Below, piece by piece: positions 18,136 through 62,450 of a stretch of DNA of 64,000 nt. How positions within the stretch are numbered: the stretch's first letter is position 1; each line of letters begins with the position of its first letter. The translations under genes were made by a program, and so were the position numbers. Below the pieces are notes generated by a model. That model saw only the letters and a program-made list of their open reading frames with translations. It was not told the DNA's origin and ran no database searches. Source of the DNA: an uncultured Gemmiger sp. (GTDB taxonomy: Bacteria; Bacillota; Clostridia; Oscillospirales; Ruminococcaceae); assembly GCA_947629015.1 (NCBI GenBank), contig CANRCB010000006.1, positions 24,347-88,346 of the forward strand, read 5' to 3'.

Positions 18136-18452
18136 AGCGCCCCGCCGGACAAAGTCCGGCGGGGCGCTCAGTGTGTCAAAAAAGTCAACTGCGATCCCAA
18201 GGCAAACTGTAGGGGGCGGCGATCTCCGCGCCAAGAGCCGCCCTTCGGGCGCTTGGCTCCGGTGCGAAGCCCGGAGCTTGCGCTCCGAAACGCCTCGCTG
18301 CGGCTCGGCGTCCCCGACGCCCCGTGAACGTTGCAACGGCGGAAAGTTTACGGGACGTCCGGAGGCCGTCCCCTACAAGCATTCCAAAAAGCATTTGGTG
18401 CTCTTTTTTCGACAGTCTCAGCGCCCCGCCGGACAAAGTCCGGCGGGGCGCT
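18136..18452. repeat. MITE-like intergenic repeat flanked by identical 33-nt palindromes (18136-18168 and 18420-18452)
   Basis: Both flanks read agcgccccgccggac-aaa-gtccggcggggcgct; the 251-nt insert has similar ends (cagtgtgtcaaaaaag / rc gagactgtcgaaaaaag). Confidence 0.7.
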
Positions 18453-18491: not shown

Positions 18492-18833
18492 TTACGAAAG
18501 GGCCAGTTCCACCGCGCCGGTGCCGAACAGCCCGCGCAAAGCGGCGGCGTCCATGCCGGTGATATGGCCCAGGCGGGTGTAGGCCCAGGTGTTGCTGCCG
18601 TGGAACACCACGATGTCCTCGCTGTTATACAGCACGATATCCCCGGCCTGCGTGGTGGTCTGCGCGTCATCGGCGGGCAGCGTGCGGCCAAGGCCGCCCA
18701 CGACCTCGAACCCGCCGTAGGGCTCGGCCGTGACGGTGAGCGGCCCCTGCGCCAAAAGCCTCCGCAGGGCGGCGGTGGCGGCGTTTTGCTCCCACTCCAC
18801 CGTGACCGGCCGGCCGTTAATCTGCAATTCCAT
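18492..18833 (-). CDS. Cyclophilin-like fold protein
   Basis: MELQINGRPVTVEWEQNAATAALRRLL...GDIVLYNSEDIVVFHGSNTWAYTRLGHI; typical of small cyclophilin-like domain proteins. Confidence 0.75.
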   Translation of the reverse strand: MELQINGRPVTVEWEQNAATAALRRLLAQGPLTVTAEPYGGFEVVGGLGRTLPADDAQTTTQAGDIVLYNSEDIVVFHGSNTWAYTRLGHITGMDAAALRGLFGTGAVELALS

Positions 18834-18932: not shown

Positions 18933-20054
18933 TTACACTTCGGTGAGTTCCCCGCGGGAGCTTGCCTTGAGGTAGGCGTAGATGAAGCCGTCCAGGTCGC
19001 CGTCCATGACGGCCTGCACGTTGCCGTTCTCGAAATTGGTGCGGTGGTCCTTGACGAGGGTGTAGGGCATGAACACATAGCTGCGGATCTGGTGCCCCCA
19101 CGCGATCTCGTTCTGCACGCCCTTGATGTCCTCGATCTTATCTTTATGCTGCTGCAGGGCGATCTGGTAGAGCTTTGCCTTGAGCATCTCCATGGCGTAT
19201 TCGCGGTTTTGCAGCTGGCTGCGCTGGGTCTGGCAGCTGGTCACGATGCCGGTGGGCTTGTGGATGAGGCGCACGGCGGAGCTCGTCTTGTTGATGTGCT
19301 GCCCGCCCGCGCCGGAGGAGCGGTAGACCTGCATCTCGACGTCCTCGGGGCGGATGTCGATCTTGATATTGTCGTCCAGTTCCGGCATGACCTCCAGGCT
19401 GGCAAAGCTCGTCTGGCGGCGGGCGTTGGCGTCAAAGGGGCTGATGCGCACCAGGCGGTGCACGCCGTGCTCCGATTTAAGCATACCGTAGGCGTTTTGC
19501 CCCTTGACCATCATCGAGGCAGATTTGATGCCCGCCTCGTCGCCGTCCAGCACGTCCAGCACCTCGACGCCGTAGCCGTGCGCGGCCGCCCAGCGGCTGT
19601 ACATGCGGTAGAGCATCTCGGCCCAGTCCTGCGCTTCGGTGCCGCCCGTGCCGGCGTGGAAGGTGAGAATGGCGTTGGAATGGTCATACTCGCCCGAGAG
19701 CATCGTCATCAGCTGCAGCTCCTCCACCGCCTTGCCGACGCCCTCCACCGCACCCTCGCCTTCGGGGAGCAGGGCGGGGTCGTTCTCTTCCTCGATCATG
19801 TCGAGCAAAAGCTCCGCCTCCTCATACTGGGTGGAAAGGCGGCGGTAACGCTCCAGCTTTGCCTTGAGCTCGCTCGATTCGGCATAGACCTTCTGGCTGG
19901 CCTCGGGGTCGTCGTAAAAGCCGGGCATCGTCATGCGGTGCTCCAGCTCCGCCACGCGCTTTTCGCTGGCTTCGATGGAAAGCGCGTCCCGCAGGTCGCG
20001 CACGGCGCCCGCATACCCCTGCAGCCGGGTCTTCAATTCGGCAATGGTGATCAT
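18933..20054 (-). CDS. prfB: Peptide chain release factor 2
   Basis: AGTGGTEAQDWAEMLYRMYSRWA, GAGGQHINKTSSAVR; one continuous frame. Confidence 0.97.
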   Translation of the reverse strand: MITIAELKTRLQGYAGAVRDLRDALSIEASEKRVAELEHRMTMPGFYDDPEASQKVYAESSELKAKLERYRRLSTQYEEAELLLDMIEEENDPALLPEGEGAVEGVGKAVEELQLMTMLSGEYDHSNAILTFHAGTGGTEAQDWAEMLYRMYSRWAAAHGYGVEVLDVLDGDEAGIKSASMMVKGQNAYGMLKSEHGVHRLVRISPFDANARRQTSFASLEVMPELDDNIKIDIRPEDVEMQVYRSSGAGGQHINKTSSAVRLIHKPTGIVTSCQTQRSQLQNREYAMEMLKAKLYQIALQQHKDKIEDIKGVQNEIAWGHQIRSYVFMPYTLVKDHRTNFENGNVQAVMDGDLDGFIYAYLKASSRGELTEV

Positions 20055-25060: not shown

Positions 25061-25090
25061 CGCGCCGCCGTGCTTTGGCACGGCGGCGCG
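25061..25090 (+). terminator. Hairpin after rpsR
   Basis: cgcgccgccgtgc-ttt-g-gcacggcggcgcg. Confidence 0.7.
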
Positions 25091-25099
25091 CTGCAAAAC

Positions 25100-25290
25100 A
25101 AAAGAGGGGTTCGGCTTTGCTGGCTGCGCCAGTCCGCCTGCACCCCTCTCTTGGACACACCCCGTCGCAAAAAATACCGTGCGCATGCCTTTCAGGCGAC
25201 TTGCACGGTATTTTTTGCTCTAGAGGTATCGGCCTCGTCGGTTCATGCCCGCCGAGGCCGATAGATTTAAAAGCATACTTTTTGGCTGTC
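25100..25290 (-). repeat. Dispersed three-hairpin intergenic element, copy A
   Basis: HP3 25100-25152, HP2 25167-25218, HP1 25228-25262; reverse complement matches copies B and C. Confidence 0.85.
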
Positions 25291-50760: not shown

Positions 50761-50971
50761 AAAGAGGCATTTAAAATCCATCGCCCTCGGCGGACATGCG
50801 CCGACGAGGGCGATACCGCTAGAGCAAAAAATACCGTTCGAGTCGCCTTTAAGGCATGAGAACGGTATTTTTTGCGACGGGGTATGTCCAAGAGAGGGGT
50901 GCAGGCGGACTGGCGCAGCCAGCTAAGCCGAACCCCTCTCTTGCAGCGTGTCGCGGCACGCGACACGCTGA
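50761..50971 (+). repeat. Dispersed three-hairpin intergenic element, copy B
   Basis: HP1 50780-50814, HP2 50824-50875, HP3 50890-50942, fourth GC hairpin 50944-50970. Confidence 0.88.
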
Positions 50972-52524: not shown

Positions 52525-52822
52525 AGCTTTCTCCCCTCTTTTGAACGTTTTGCTGTATGCTTATTCCGCCCCGCAAAGAAAAATGCGAGGGGGCAGGGCC
52601 GCCCGCACACCGCGGCCATGCGCCCCTCACACCATTGTGAGCCTTGCGGAGAAGTTGTCTTTATTTTATACGTCAGGGCGGCAATGTCAAGGGTTTTTGG
52701 TAAAGTTTGTTGGCGCTGCATAGACGTTTGTGTGTACGCGGAAAACATTTTGGTTGTTTTGCCGCTTTAAGCCATTAAAGCGGCACGCGCCCAAAAACGC
52801 CCGCCCCGGCCGGGGCGGGCGT

Positions 52823-53048
52823 GAGAGACTGCCGAAAAAGATATCTTCTAAATCTATCGCCCTCGGCTGACATGCGCAGACGAGGGCGATACCTCTAGAG
52901 CAAAAAATACCGTGCAAGTCGCCTGAAAGGCATGCGCACGGTATTTTTTGCGACGGGGTGTGTCCAAGAGAGGGGTGCAGGCGGACTGGCGCAGCCAGCT
53001 AAGCCGAACCCCTCTTTTGCAGCGTGTCGCGGCACGCGACACGCTGAA
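52823..53048 (+). repeat. Dispersed three-hairpin intergenic element, copy C
   Basis: Same hairpin order as copy B; between identical 28-nt repeats at 52795-52822 and 53047-53074. Confidence 0.88.
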
Positions 53049-53097
53049 ACGCCCGCCCCGGCCGGGGCGGGCGTTGAGACAGGGCCTTTTCAGGCGT

Positions 53098-53302: not shown

Positions 53303-56185
53303 TTACTGCGCCAGCTGGCTCTGCTGCTCGAACCGGCGGGCCTGGTGCTTTTTGCGGTCATGGGTGTAGTACAGGGCCACGGCCAGCGCCAGCAGCATGA
53401 CGAGCAGATGCAAAACGCAGCAGTCCTGCGTGATGCTGAGCATGGCGAGCGGGGTCTCATTTTCCTCAATGGCCGTGCCGCCCTGGCCGGCGCCGGGGCC
53501 TCCGGCCAGCGGGGTATCGTTGTCGTCGATGACCACACCGGCGTCGTCATCGGCGTCGTCGGCGTCGTCATCCGCGTCCGCGTCGGCAACACCGGCTCCG
53601 CCGGCTGCACCGGCGCCGCCAGGCACAGCCGCGGCAGGCGTCGGGGCCAGCGGGGTGGCATCATCATCAATGGTCACAGGGGCAGGGACGACCGGGGCTG
53701 TACCGCCGGGCGTGGTGCCGGGCGTAGTGCCGGGGTCGGCCGGGGTGGTGCCGCCGGGGGTCGTGCCGCCTTCGTCACCGCCGCCGGGCGTCGTGCCGCC
53801 TTCGTCACCGCCGCCGGGGGTCGTGCCGGGGTCGGCCGGGGTCGGGGTCGGTTCCGGAGACGGTTCCGGAGACGGGGTGGGGGTCGGGGTGGCTTCACCG
53901 CCGCCTTCGCCGCCGGGTGCCGGGGTCGGGGTGGCTTCACCGCCGCTTTCGCCGCCGGGCGCCGGGGTGGGGGTCGGGGTGGCTTCACCGCCGCTTTCGC
54001 CGCCGGGTGTCGGGGTGGATTCCGGAGACGGGGTCGGGGTGGGTTCCGGAGACGGGCTCGGGGTGGGTTCACCGCCGCTTTCGCCGCCGGGCGTCGGGGT
54101 GGGGGGCGGGGTGGCTTCACCGCCGCTTTCGCCGCCGGGTGTCGGGGTGGGTTCCGGAGACGGTTCCGGGGATGGTTCCGGGGACGGTTCCGGAGACGGT
54201 TCCGGCGTCTCGCACTTGACGAGAACACTCTTGTCGGAAGCGTCATATTTTGTCGTACCGTCTACCGTGTACCAGCCGCCATCAATGTAGTGCAGCGTAA
54301 AGGTAACGTTTTGCACATCCGCGGTATGCGTGCCGTATACCGCATTGTATTGGTCCAGATACTGCTTGACGGCAGTGGTGACGGTGACCGTATAGCCGGT
54401 TTCCGCGTTGCCTTGCACCTCGGAGACCGTCGCATCCCCAACGGGGTAAGTTACCTTATCATGGACGGTGTTGCAGTAGAGCGTGACGCTGAGTTTTGTT
54501 TTCAGCGCATCAAGGTCGGGCTTTTTCGGCGTTGTGTCCACGCACCTGGTCTCAATGGTAAGGGTGACTTTTGGGGAACTGCACGTAGAATCCACATACC
54601 AATTGCCGCCGCGGTAATACAGCACATGCGTCAATTTTAACGGACTTAGCGGCTCATGCAGGCCATGCGTTGTGGAAAATTCCTCGACATACGGCTGCCT
54701 TTCGATCGTCACACTGACCGTCCAGACGCCGTCGCCGGCTTCCTGGATCTCGCCGACCGTATAGGAACCTTCACGCAAAGGATAGGTTTTTTCCGTATGC
54801 TCGGCGTTTTTGTTGCACTTGACCTTAATATTGATCAAGCCGGCCAACGCATCCTGCCCCGGGACTGCCGGTTTGGCCGGCTTCCATTGGGCGGTGTAAA
54901 CGGCATCTCCGGTCACTGTCTCGGCGACCTCCGGGCTCCAACCGGCAAATTCATACCCATTGCGGGTAGGGGTACCACCTCTGAAAGCAGGCGTGGGATC
55001 GCCCTCCGCAACGGTGTCGACCTGGTCTGCAAAAACGGTCTCATCCTTGACGCCATCGGTGTAGGTAACGGTGTGCGTGTTGCCCTCTACAACAACGATG
55101 AAGGTGATCGTCCTGTCATACCAGCTGTTATCTGCACATCTATGAGTCTGCCCGCAATATGAGCAGTAACGGTTGCCACAATTGCCAAAGTATACCGACG
55201 TTTCAAATGTGAAGGTCGTTGTGCCGGGCTTAAGGCCGGTGAACCAGATGTCGATATCATACCCGTTGGCATTATAGCCACAGTCCACATTGCCCAAAAT
55301 GGAGTGATCATAGTCAGCGTAAGCGTCACCATACATATAAATGTGCGCGCTGGAGAAAACTTTGTTCCGATTATTTGGGCAATAGAAATCCAGCACCGGG
55401 GTACTGTAGTTATATGTGCCTTGCTGGCCGACTTTGATCGTGATTGTCCGGCCGGCTGCAATCGTAGCGATGCCGGATTCCGCAGCCGCAGCGGGCTCAT
55501 CGTCCTTGGCCGCCGGGCCGTTGACGATCTCGGTCTCGGGCGCCTTCTCGGGCGCGGGGGCGATCGGGGGCAGCCCCACCACTACGGGCACAGGCATACT
55601 CTGCACTTCCGTGTCCGCGGTGGGTTCGTCCCCGGCGGGGGCAGCGTCAACCGGCGTGTCCGCAGCGGGCGCATCCTCGGCGGGGGCAGCGTCAACGGGC
55701 ATGTCCGCGGCGGGTTCGTCCCCGGCGGGGGCGGCGTCAACCAGCGTGTCCGCGGCGGGCGCATCCTCGGCAGGGGCGGCGTCAACGGGCGTGTCCGCGG
55801 CGGGTTCGTCCCCGGCAGGGGCGGCGTCAACGGGCGTGTCCGCGGCGGGTTCGTCCCCGGCGGGGGCGGCGTCAACCGGCGTGTCCGCGGCGGGCGCATC
55901 CTCGGCAGGGGCAGCGTCAACGGGCGCATCCGCGGCGGCCTCAGGGGCCGGAGCGGTCATGGATGGTTCAATGACGGTGTCCTCACCGTCATTGGAAGTG
56001 GGAGCTCCCACTTCCGGCTCCACCACAGGTTCGGCAGCCTGTTGAGCGGCCTCCTCCTCGGCCTGCACGGCCACGGCAGGCGGTTCCGTTGGGCCGGCGT
56101 CATCGGCAAAGGCGGCGGTGCCAAGGTTGCTTATCACCATCGCGGTCGCCAAGATGCCGGCCCACATACGTTTGCTCAGTTTCAT
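53303..56185 (-). CDS. Large surface protein 1: signal peptide, 15-aa repeats, InlB B-repeat-like domain, Pro-rich stalk, TPLA motifs, C-terminal TM
   Basis: [58 protein letters not shown]-like block ([18 protein letters not shown]); [44 protein letters not shown] end. Confidence 0.88.
55612..55926 (-). repeat. About seven tandem 45-bp coding repeats
   Basis: Encodes VDAAPA(G/E)D(E/A)PAADTP units. Confidence 0.85.
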
Positions 56186-56385
56186 CTTGAGCCTCCTTTA
56201 TGTGTATGGGGGTAAATTGACAAAACGATCGTTTCCAAAAGTCTTGTCCCTTCAAACTATATAGACGGAGCAGCGGGCCAAAACGGCTCACGTTTTTTGT
56301 GGTTTTTGAAAATTTTTTTCGGGCGTTTGTTTCCGGCCGGGCGTGCCGGCGGCGGAGGGGCGCCTTTATGGATTCCTCCATAAAC

Positions 56386-56447
56386 AGTATACCATGCACC
56401 ATTTTTTGCACACAAGAACCGTTTGCGTCATTAAACGCAACGTTCGC
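56386..56447 (-). promoter_or_regulatory. Promoter TTGTGT-18-TATACT with upstream 9-nt direct repeats, surface protein 1
   Basis: -10 56386-56391, -35 56410-56415; accgtttgc 56418-56426 and aacgttcgc 56439-56447 (21-nt period). Confidence 0.6.
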
Positions 56448-56459
56448 GCAGAGATATGT

Positions 56460-56859
56460 GCATTTTCACCAAAAATAATGCACCCGGCGGATCGCATTTG
56501 CAGGGCGCCCCTGCGGGGGCAAGCCCCCGCCCTACAATCGGAATATACGTCCCCGGCGCCCCGTCAAAGGCATTCCGCGGTACGACGGGCCGCATGTATG
56601 CGGCCCCTACGGGATGGATGATACGTTTTCTGTATTCCCGTAGGGGGCGGCGTCCTCGACGCCCCGCAAGCGGCATCCCGCGGTACGGCCGCGCGGCGGG
56701 GGCAAGCCCCCGCCCTACAACCGGCCCATACGTCCCCGGCACCCCGTCAAAGGCATTCCGCGGTACGGCGGGCCGATTGTAATCGGCCCCTACGGAATGG
56801 ATGATACGTTTTCCGTATTCCCGTAGGGGGCGGCGTCCACTGCCTTTTTTGACACACTG
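56460..56859. repeat. Mosaic of GC-rich intergenic repeats
   Basis: Multiple copies of gtagggggcggcgtc..., gggggcaagcccccgccctacaa, cgtccccggc(g/a)ccccgtcaaaggcattccgcggtacg and (a)tggatgatacgtttt. Confidence 0.75.
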
Positions 56860-56893
56860 GCGTGCCGCCGCCCTTTACGGGGCGGCGGCACGC
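56860..56893 (-). terminator. GC hairpin downstream of surface protein 2
   Basis: gcgtgccgccgccc...gggcggcggcacgc, 14-bp stem. Confidence 0.65.
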
Positions 56894-61357: not shown

Positions 61358-61581
61358 GGGTGCCTCCTTTGAGGGCGGGGTGAAAACACACAGGCGCGCC
61401 GGGGCGGCGCGCCGTTCGGGATGCGGCCACAGTTTGCCCTTTTACCATATAAGATGAATCTACAGGGCAAAACGGTTCCCATCGTTTGCGGGTTTTTCAA
61501 AATTTTTCTTCCGGGCGTCTGTTTCCGGCCGGGCGGACACGCCGGCGGCGGATGGGCGCCTTTACGGATTTCTCCACAAAC

Positions 61582-61643
61582 AGTATACCATGCGCCATTT
61601 TTTGCACACAAGGGCCGTTCGCGCCCTCAAACGGGACGTTCGC
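61582..61643 (-). promoter_or_regulatory. Promoter TTGTGT-18-TATACT with upstream 9-nt direct repeats, surface protein 2
   Basis: -10 61582-61587, -35 61606-61611; gccgttcgc 61614-61622 and gacgttcgc 61635-61643 (21-nt period). Confidence 0.6.
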
Positions 61644-61669
61644 GCAAGGCTTTGTGCATTTTTGCCAAA

Positions 61670-62450
61670 TATAAGGCCCCCGCCCTGCAAACCACCCGAG
61701 AATAACATTTGCAGTAAGGTTCGGGGCGTCGAGGACGCCGCCCCCTACGGTTTGCCCGAAAACACCATCCACCCACAGCGGGGTCAAGACCCCGCCCTAC
61801 GACCGGCCTATACGTCCCCGGCACCCCGTCAAAGGCACCCCGCGTCACGGCGGGGCGAGTGATACGGTTTCCGTTTCCCGCAGGGGGCGGCGTCCCCGAC
61901 GCCCCGCAAAATCCGCGCCCTGCCCGCAGCGGCGCGCAGCGCGGCGTGAGCGTGGACGGCGCCGCAAGGTGGCGTCCGTCCGGCGGACGGGGGATGACAC
62001 CTGCCCAAGCACCCGGGCGATATCCTGCCCCGGGGGATTCCAAAAGGGGGGAATCCCCTTTGGTCGTGGGTCCGCTGCATGCGAAACCAGCGGGATCTTC
62101 TGCGCCCGCAGGCGCGTCTCGGAGCGCAAGCTCCGGGCTTCGCACGGAGCCAAGCGCCCGAAGGGCGGCTCTTAGCGCGGAGAGGCGGTTCCTTTTCGGT
62201 CACGAAAAGGAACGGTAAAAAGCCAAATCCCGGCAGAACGCGGCAGCCAACAAACCCCGCGAACGGCATCCTGTCCCCCTCATCAGTCGCCTGCGGCGTG
62301 TAGGGCGGGGTCTTGACCCCGCCGCCCCAAAGGGGGAAGCCTTCCCAGGTGTCTCGCATTTTAAGCCTTCCCCTTCCGGGGGATCGCGCCCGCAGGCGCA
62401 TTTCGGAGCGCAACCGCCCGAAGGGCGGCTCTTGGCGCGGAGATAGGTGG
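61670..62450. repeat. Intergenic region built from several dispersed repeat families
   Basis: Contains cgtccccggcaccccgtcaaaggca, gtagggcggggtcttgaccccgccg and two copies (62100-62183, 62383-62443) of the gcgcccgcaggcgc...gggcggctctt(a/g)gcgcgga unit also at 18226-18300. Confidence 0.75.

Follow-up and report, generated by a model that had tools for sequence, protein, structure and literature searches.

The 251-bp element described here, which lies between two identical hairpins in the analysed window (the whole stretch of 64,000 nucleotides from an uncultured Gemmiger sp.), is a MITE derived from IS1182, and its insertion at a gene terminator has duplicated this terminator. This conclusion follows from the ends that the element shares with autonomous IS1182-family elements, from the transposase that these elements carry in relatives of the host, from the duplicated hairpins beside the insertions, and from the empty sites. 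Taken together, the data make it very probable that the MITE is moved in trans by a DDE transposase of the IS1182 family, which targets hairpins and duplicates the whole hairpin on insertion.

Structure of the locus

The two copies of the 33-nt palindrome AGCGCCCCGCCGGACAAAGTCCGGCGGGGCGCT are identical and in direct orientation, and the preliminary description of this DNA, which was made from the sequence alone, had placed both of them exactly (Table 1). The loop, AAA, makes the 33-mer asymmetric, and its reverse complement has no occurrence in the window. The insert between the copies ends in CAGTGTGTCAAAAAAG on one strand and in GAGACTGTCGAAAAAAG on the other, which are imperfect inverted repeats, as had also been described. 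Read on the minus strand, copy 1 of the hairpin is followed by TTTTCTATGCGG. The hairpin is the terminator of the minus-strand gene beside it. A Pfam search with this gene gave no match. The gene still has a complete hairpin and a T run downstream, now on the far side of the element.

The 251-bp element has no transposase gene and is present in multiple copies, as MITEs are. The only Rfam match, to an sRNA family, scored 24 bits, below the gathering score of 45, and we take it as chance.

Table 1. Positions in the window of the MITE, its target hairpins, the neighbouring gene and a second insertion of the same kind
Feature	Position	Strand	Remarks
Target hairpin, copy 1 (original gene terminator)	18136-18168	-	perfect 15-bp stem, 3-nt loop; TTTTCTATG tail retained
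Non-coding mobile element of 251 bp (IS1182-type MITE)	18169-18419	.	copies in the genome; ends as in autonomous IS1182 elements
Terminal inverted repeat, type B, CAGTGTGTCAAAAAAG	18169-18184	+	genome consensus CAGcGTGTCAAAAAAg
Terminal inverted repeat, type A, GAGACTGTCGAAAAAA	18404-18419	-	genome consensus cAGACTGTCgAAAAAg; consensus of autonomous IS, CAG.CTGTCgAAgAA
Nested hairpin-rich module of 89 bp	18217-18305	.	lacking in 162-bp copies of this MITE when they are aligned with 251-bp copies
Target hairpin, copy 2 (gene-proximal duplicate)	18420-18452	-	same as copy 1; followed by the element end, no T run
Gene, 3' end toward the terminator	18492-18832	-	adjoins a release-factor gene (18933-20054, -)
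Second example, element 52825-53046 (copy C of the preliminary description), different core	52797-53074	.	two copies of the hairpin ACGCCCGCCCCGGCCGGGGCGGGCGT

Copies in the genome and hairpins beside their ends

The genome of the window (G000) is a 2.2-Mb assembly of 75 contigs, 87% complete, of the order Oscillospirales, and the counts given for it come from searches and fetched stretches. It contained 56 matches to the 251-bp insert, 8 of them essentially the full element. The motif CAGYGTGTCR was matched 6 times in the window against 0.5 expected, and none of 100 shuffles reached 6. In the whole genome, GACTGYCRAAAAA with at most one mismatch gave 63 matches against 13 for the reversed control pattern, and CAGACTGTCGAAAAAG with 1 mismatch gave 26 against 0. 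The end motifs are therefore not due to chance. In another genome of the genus (G018), CAGACTGTCGAAAAAG with at most one mismatch was matched 87 times, several-fold above the other genomes listed and with many matches at contig ends; these elements have probably expanded there recently.

The fetched surroundings in the window's genome contained 28 element-like end pairs with several unrelated cores. Among them were the 251-bp form, a 162-bp one and, with a core of its own, a family of about 152 bp. The preliminary description had suggested that unrelated cores sharing termini and terminator duplication reflect one mobilisation mechanism, and our results support this, as different cores share the ends and each copy has its own hairpin. 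Beyond that description, the 251-bp core is itself composite, being the 162-bp element carrying a nested module of about 89 bp. This module sits within the palindrome GTAGGGGGCGGCGTCCCCGACGCCCCG of the 162-bp MITE, and it also stands alone at many other places, for example twice, 244 bp apart, in locus L036. It may be another hairpin-targeting repeat.

The frequency of hairpins near the end motifs, on which the preliminary description had made its reading depend, was above expectation. Of the 55 strict ends, 35 had a hairpin stem of 8 bp or more that stopped no more than 4 nt from the element; the same was true of 3.9% of random positions and of 2.3% of more distant positions at these loci. 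The hairpin sequence changes from site to site, and the two hairpins of one site match. Among 64 candidate end pairs from this genome and its relatives, in which some insertions, having been fetched twice, count double (L030/L115 in the inverted group, L087/L118 in the direct one), 26 had matching hairpins (20 direct, 5 loop-inverted and 1 symmetric). More than half of the MITE candidate pairs thus had no recognisable matching hairpin pair, as did about a third of the related IS insertions examined below. The missing pairs are partly explained by decay, contig ends and false end pairing, and recombination probably contributed as well.

The matching transposase

A transposase with matching ends, which the preliminary description had proposed to look for, was found in the IS1182 family within the same order, and fragments of it in the same genus. 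Two independent searches of relatives, one with the DUF772 domain and the other with the end motif, led to the same locus (L059) in Pseudoflavonifractor sp. An44. Its element of 1522 bp runs from CAGACTGTCGAAAAAC to GTTCTTCGACAGTCTG, encodes a 484-aa IS1182-family transposase and is flanked by two copies of a 32-nt hairpin. The transposase scored 386 bits with NF033551 (curated cut-off 270) and contains the domains PF05598 and PF13751. The An44 genome also harbors a MITE with related ends, which lies between two copies of another hairpin.

The autonomous elements with matching ends in relatives are 1.5-1.6 kb long and encode an IS1182-family DDE enzyme. Their ends, CAG.CTGTC.AAAAA in 32 autonomous elements, match the MITE ends cAGACTGTCgAAAAAg and CAGcGTGTCAAAAAAg. 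Residues D145, D280 and E407 were invariant in 12 aligned transposases, which is consistent with a DDE triad, and from knowledge of the family we take these three to be the catalytic residues. A PDB search found no sequence relative of the transposase.

Searches of the window's genome with PF13751, PF05598 and the L059 protein gave no match in this 87% complete assembly of 75 contigs. A genome with a MITE usually has a functional transposase that can move it, but this does not strictly define a MITE, because such sources may disappear. Within the genus, the transposase was found only as fragments, in G011 and G015, and those of G011 are accompanied by matching ends, CAGACTGTCGAGAAAC and CAGTTTGTCAAAAAAG, and by hairpins. 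A further fragment, in G006 (L060/L117), was rejected, as its score does not reach the cut-off for IS1182 and the motif could not be placed at its left end.

Duplication of the target by autonomous insertions

A scan of 84,980 species genomes gave 80 loci. At the 57 loci examined, from Clostridia, we mapped the element ends and compared the sequences on either side. The direct flanking duplication was one whole palindrome of 20-64 bp in 38 of the 57 insertions, so whole-hairpin duplication is common to the MITEs and the autonomous elements. When the flanks were rejoined in silico, the centre of the duplication lay within 1 nt of the palindrome centre in 37 of the 38. A run of four T or A was present just outside the hairpin in 28 of the 38, against 10% at random, as expected of terminators.

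A conventional but unusually long staggered cut, with terminators being merely frequent targets in gene-dense genomes, could be considered, as long duplications are possible in principle. We regard this as very improbable, because the length of the duplication tracked that of the palindrome (r = 0.89). A fixed stagger is excluded, as the length varied with the hairpin even within one genome: in the complete genome of Chakrabartyella piscis, elements of 1483-1484 bp had duplications of 20, 22, 22, 23, 25, 31 and 35 bp, each fitting its own hairpin. The size of the duplication is normally fixed by the enzyme; in these insertions it varies threefold with the length of the target hairpin, which implies that the transposase recognises the shape of the DNA and can join strands over a variable distance.

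The same arrangement was observed in Enterococcus (ISEfa7), Listeria, Sutcliffiella, Streptococcus phages, Staphylococcus arlettae and Vibrio penaeicida. In the transposase tree, 33 of 34 hairpin-duplicating enzymes clustered, and that of Vibrio was placed among distant members. The deep part of this tree has long branches, and the tree neither establishes nor rejects a single origin. Four distant IS1182 members (ISCfr1 and copies in Aeromonas, Sinorhizobium and Hymenobacter) differ in their ends and lack the palindromic duplication; they provide an internal negative control.

Empty sites

For autonomous relatives, we found two exact empty sites. The Streptococcus prophages Javan87 and Javan90, whose joined flanks have 0 mismatches in 400 bp, differ by an IS1182 element of 1538 bp together with an additional copy of a 26-bp hairpin. 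The Listeria plasmids pLIS32 and pLM5578 (also 0 mismatches in 400 bp) showed the same pattern with a 21-bp hairpin. At both sites there was one hairpin before the insertion and two after it; therefore, the hairpin is target DNA that is duplicated on insertion. The preliminary description had predicted a single palindrome at empty sites, and these two sites, together with the orthologous terminator of the window gene, agreed with it. They also extend it, as the two exact sites of the autonomous relatives show a true target-site duplication that comprises the entire hairpin. Both exact sites belong to elements of Bacilli, with roughly 44% protein identity, and not to the window element. At the window locus, the orthologous gene in species of the same genus is followed by a single downstream hairpin of another sequence and by no element. 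Among the same-genus genomes, where the flanking gene shows only about 68-78% identity, no exact empty allele of the window insertion was found. For the ISEfa7 insertion of E. faecium, where the hairpin is duplicated, no empty allele was found, and the two related plasmids examined carry the neighbouring element.

Some elements have two different end hairpins, as recombination between copies would yield, and this might point to insertion between pre-existing tandem hairpins, or to a hairpin pair arising by local duplication or recombination unrelated to transposition. Such an origin is highly unlikely, since in dozens of independent insertions the element is immediately bordered by the duplication, which was centred on the palindrome as noted above, while the two empty sites have one hairpin and no empty allele with two was seen.

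Furi et al. (2016; PMC4923244) and Wan et al. (2017; PMC5678879) reported that IS1272/TnSha1, a member of the IS1182 family in staphylococci, targets hairpins by their structure and that these are often terminators. Palindrome targeting by members of the IS1182 family has likewise been published (PMC5678879; PMC4923244, which refers to Siguier 2015). The window-type elements agree with IS1272 in this structure-directed targeting of hairpins without a sequence consensus, as each site has a different hairpin. The present elements are bordered by two complete hairpins; with IS1272, by contrast, the hairpin is deleted or replaced and no target duplication arises. Wan et al. (PMC5678879) also drew whole stem-loop duplication as a hypothetical 'pathway b', beside the observed hairpin replacement of IS1272. 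A replacement of this type, in which the target stem-loop is removed and the flanking hairpins are remnants, would be in line with the hairpin targeting of IS1272 by a transposase of the same family (PMC4923244, PMC5678879) and with an IS1272-like locus (L248) that has half-stems outside its ends. There is very little chance that it formed the present pairs, as both flanks have complete hairpins and the target gains sequence, which refutes it as the main mode of this clade; it could occur in the clade as a minority outcome.

That the terminator hairpins belong to the mobile unit and are carried along at each end, as their position directly at the ends of most copies might suggest, is refuted and almost certainly wrong, because the hairpins differ at nearly every site, yet match within a site, and the empty sites already have one copy of the same hairpin.

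Proposed mechanism

In DDE transposition, the 3' ends of the element are joined to both target strands, and the spacing of the two joints sets the duplication. For whole-hairpin duplication by the IS1182-family transposase, we propose that the enzyme would recognise the short ends (CAG-N-CTGTC-R-AAAAA and variants) and would pick an intrinsic-terminator hairpin by its shape and not by its sequence. The two 3' ends of the element would then attack at the 5' feet of the hairpin, one per strand. The stagger would thus equal the hairpin length, and gap repair would leave a complete hairpin in direct orientation on each side. The joints are placed at the 5' feet on both strands because the whole palindrome, of whatever length, is duplicated. 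Such joints would be expected of an enzyme that binds an extruded hairpin or a cruciform, and we infer an extruded or single-stranded hairpin as the target, read in a shape-directed step, as well as the order in which the strands are joined; an IS1182 transposase presumably moved this particular MITE. We are inclined to think, with some reserve, that across a large IS1182 clade the duplication is set by the geometry of the extruded hairpin, with joints at its 5' feet, for any palindrome of about 20 to 64 bp. If this is true, it would represent DDE transposition with a variable stagger defined by structure, which leaves an intact terminator hairpin on both sides and an element hidden between genes.

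The stems match and one flanking loop is inverted at loci L026, L030, L050, L090, L127, L145 and L210/L211. Loop inversion was seen in five MITE rows, two of which are one insertion, and in a few IS insertions. These minority cases are unexplained by simple gap repair, and later template switching inside the palindrome could have produced them.

The landing of these elements at gene ends, where a complete terminator hairpin is left on each side, would make them tolerable in dense genomes. It also explains a class of intergenic repeats between identical hairpins in gut Clostridia. The signature, a hairpin followed by CAG.CTGTC.AAAAA and, at the other end, the same hairpin, allows such elements to be detected automatically.

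Relation to known systems

The autonomous elements belong to the IS1182 transposase family (NF033551), including ISEfa7, with DUF772 and DDE_Tnp_1_6 domains, a length of about 1.5-1.6 kb and similar ends, and several of its members have the same hairpin duplication; the window element differs in having no gene and only 251 bp. For IS1182, duplications of widely varying length are listed in the ISfinder tables. Group IIC introns also insert beside intrinsic terminator hairpins, but they do so by RNA-based retrohoming, and they have no terminal inverted repeats and are not known to duplicate the hairpin. The REP/BIME elements with RAYT transposases are likewise small intergenic repeats linked to hairpins (PMC2817692). 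Their hairpin is a part of what moves, and their enzyme is a Y1 HUH transposase, whereas the present elements have the hairpin as their target and a DDE transposase as their enzyme.

In the open-access literature, whose coverage is incomplete, there was no report of whole-hairpin duplication as a regular outcome, nor of these MITEs. Our claim of novelty is limited for this reason, and it concerns only these two points, as hairpin targeting was already known.

Other repeats of the window

The second example in Table 1 has its hairpin copies at 52797 and 53049. It is related to another element at about 50770-50970, and the two have a core distinct from all those described above. Each of the two has a hairpin on each side, the left one of the element at about 50770-50970 being mutated. 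Copy A of the other repeat family (25061-25283) has a hairpin on one side only, where its terminal repeat is lost. Further G+C-rich repeats at 56333-56859 and 61529-61909 have modules in common; one of them terminates in CAGTGTGTCAAAAAAG beside the hairpin GCGTGCCGCCGCCCTTTACGGGGCGGCGGCACGC at 56860, and the other end of this repeat was not found. Long arrays of short tandem repeats occupy 53833-55988, inside a large minus-strand ORF (53303-56185).
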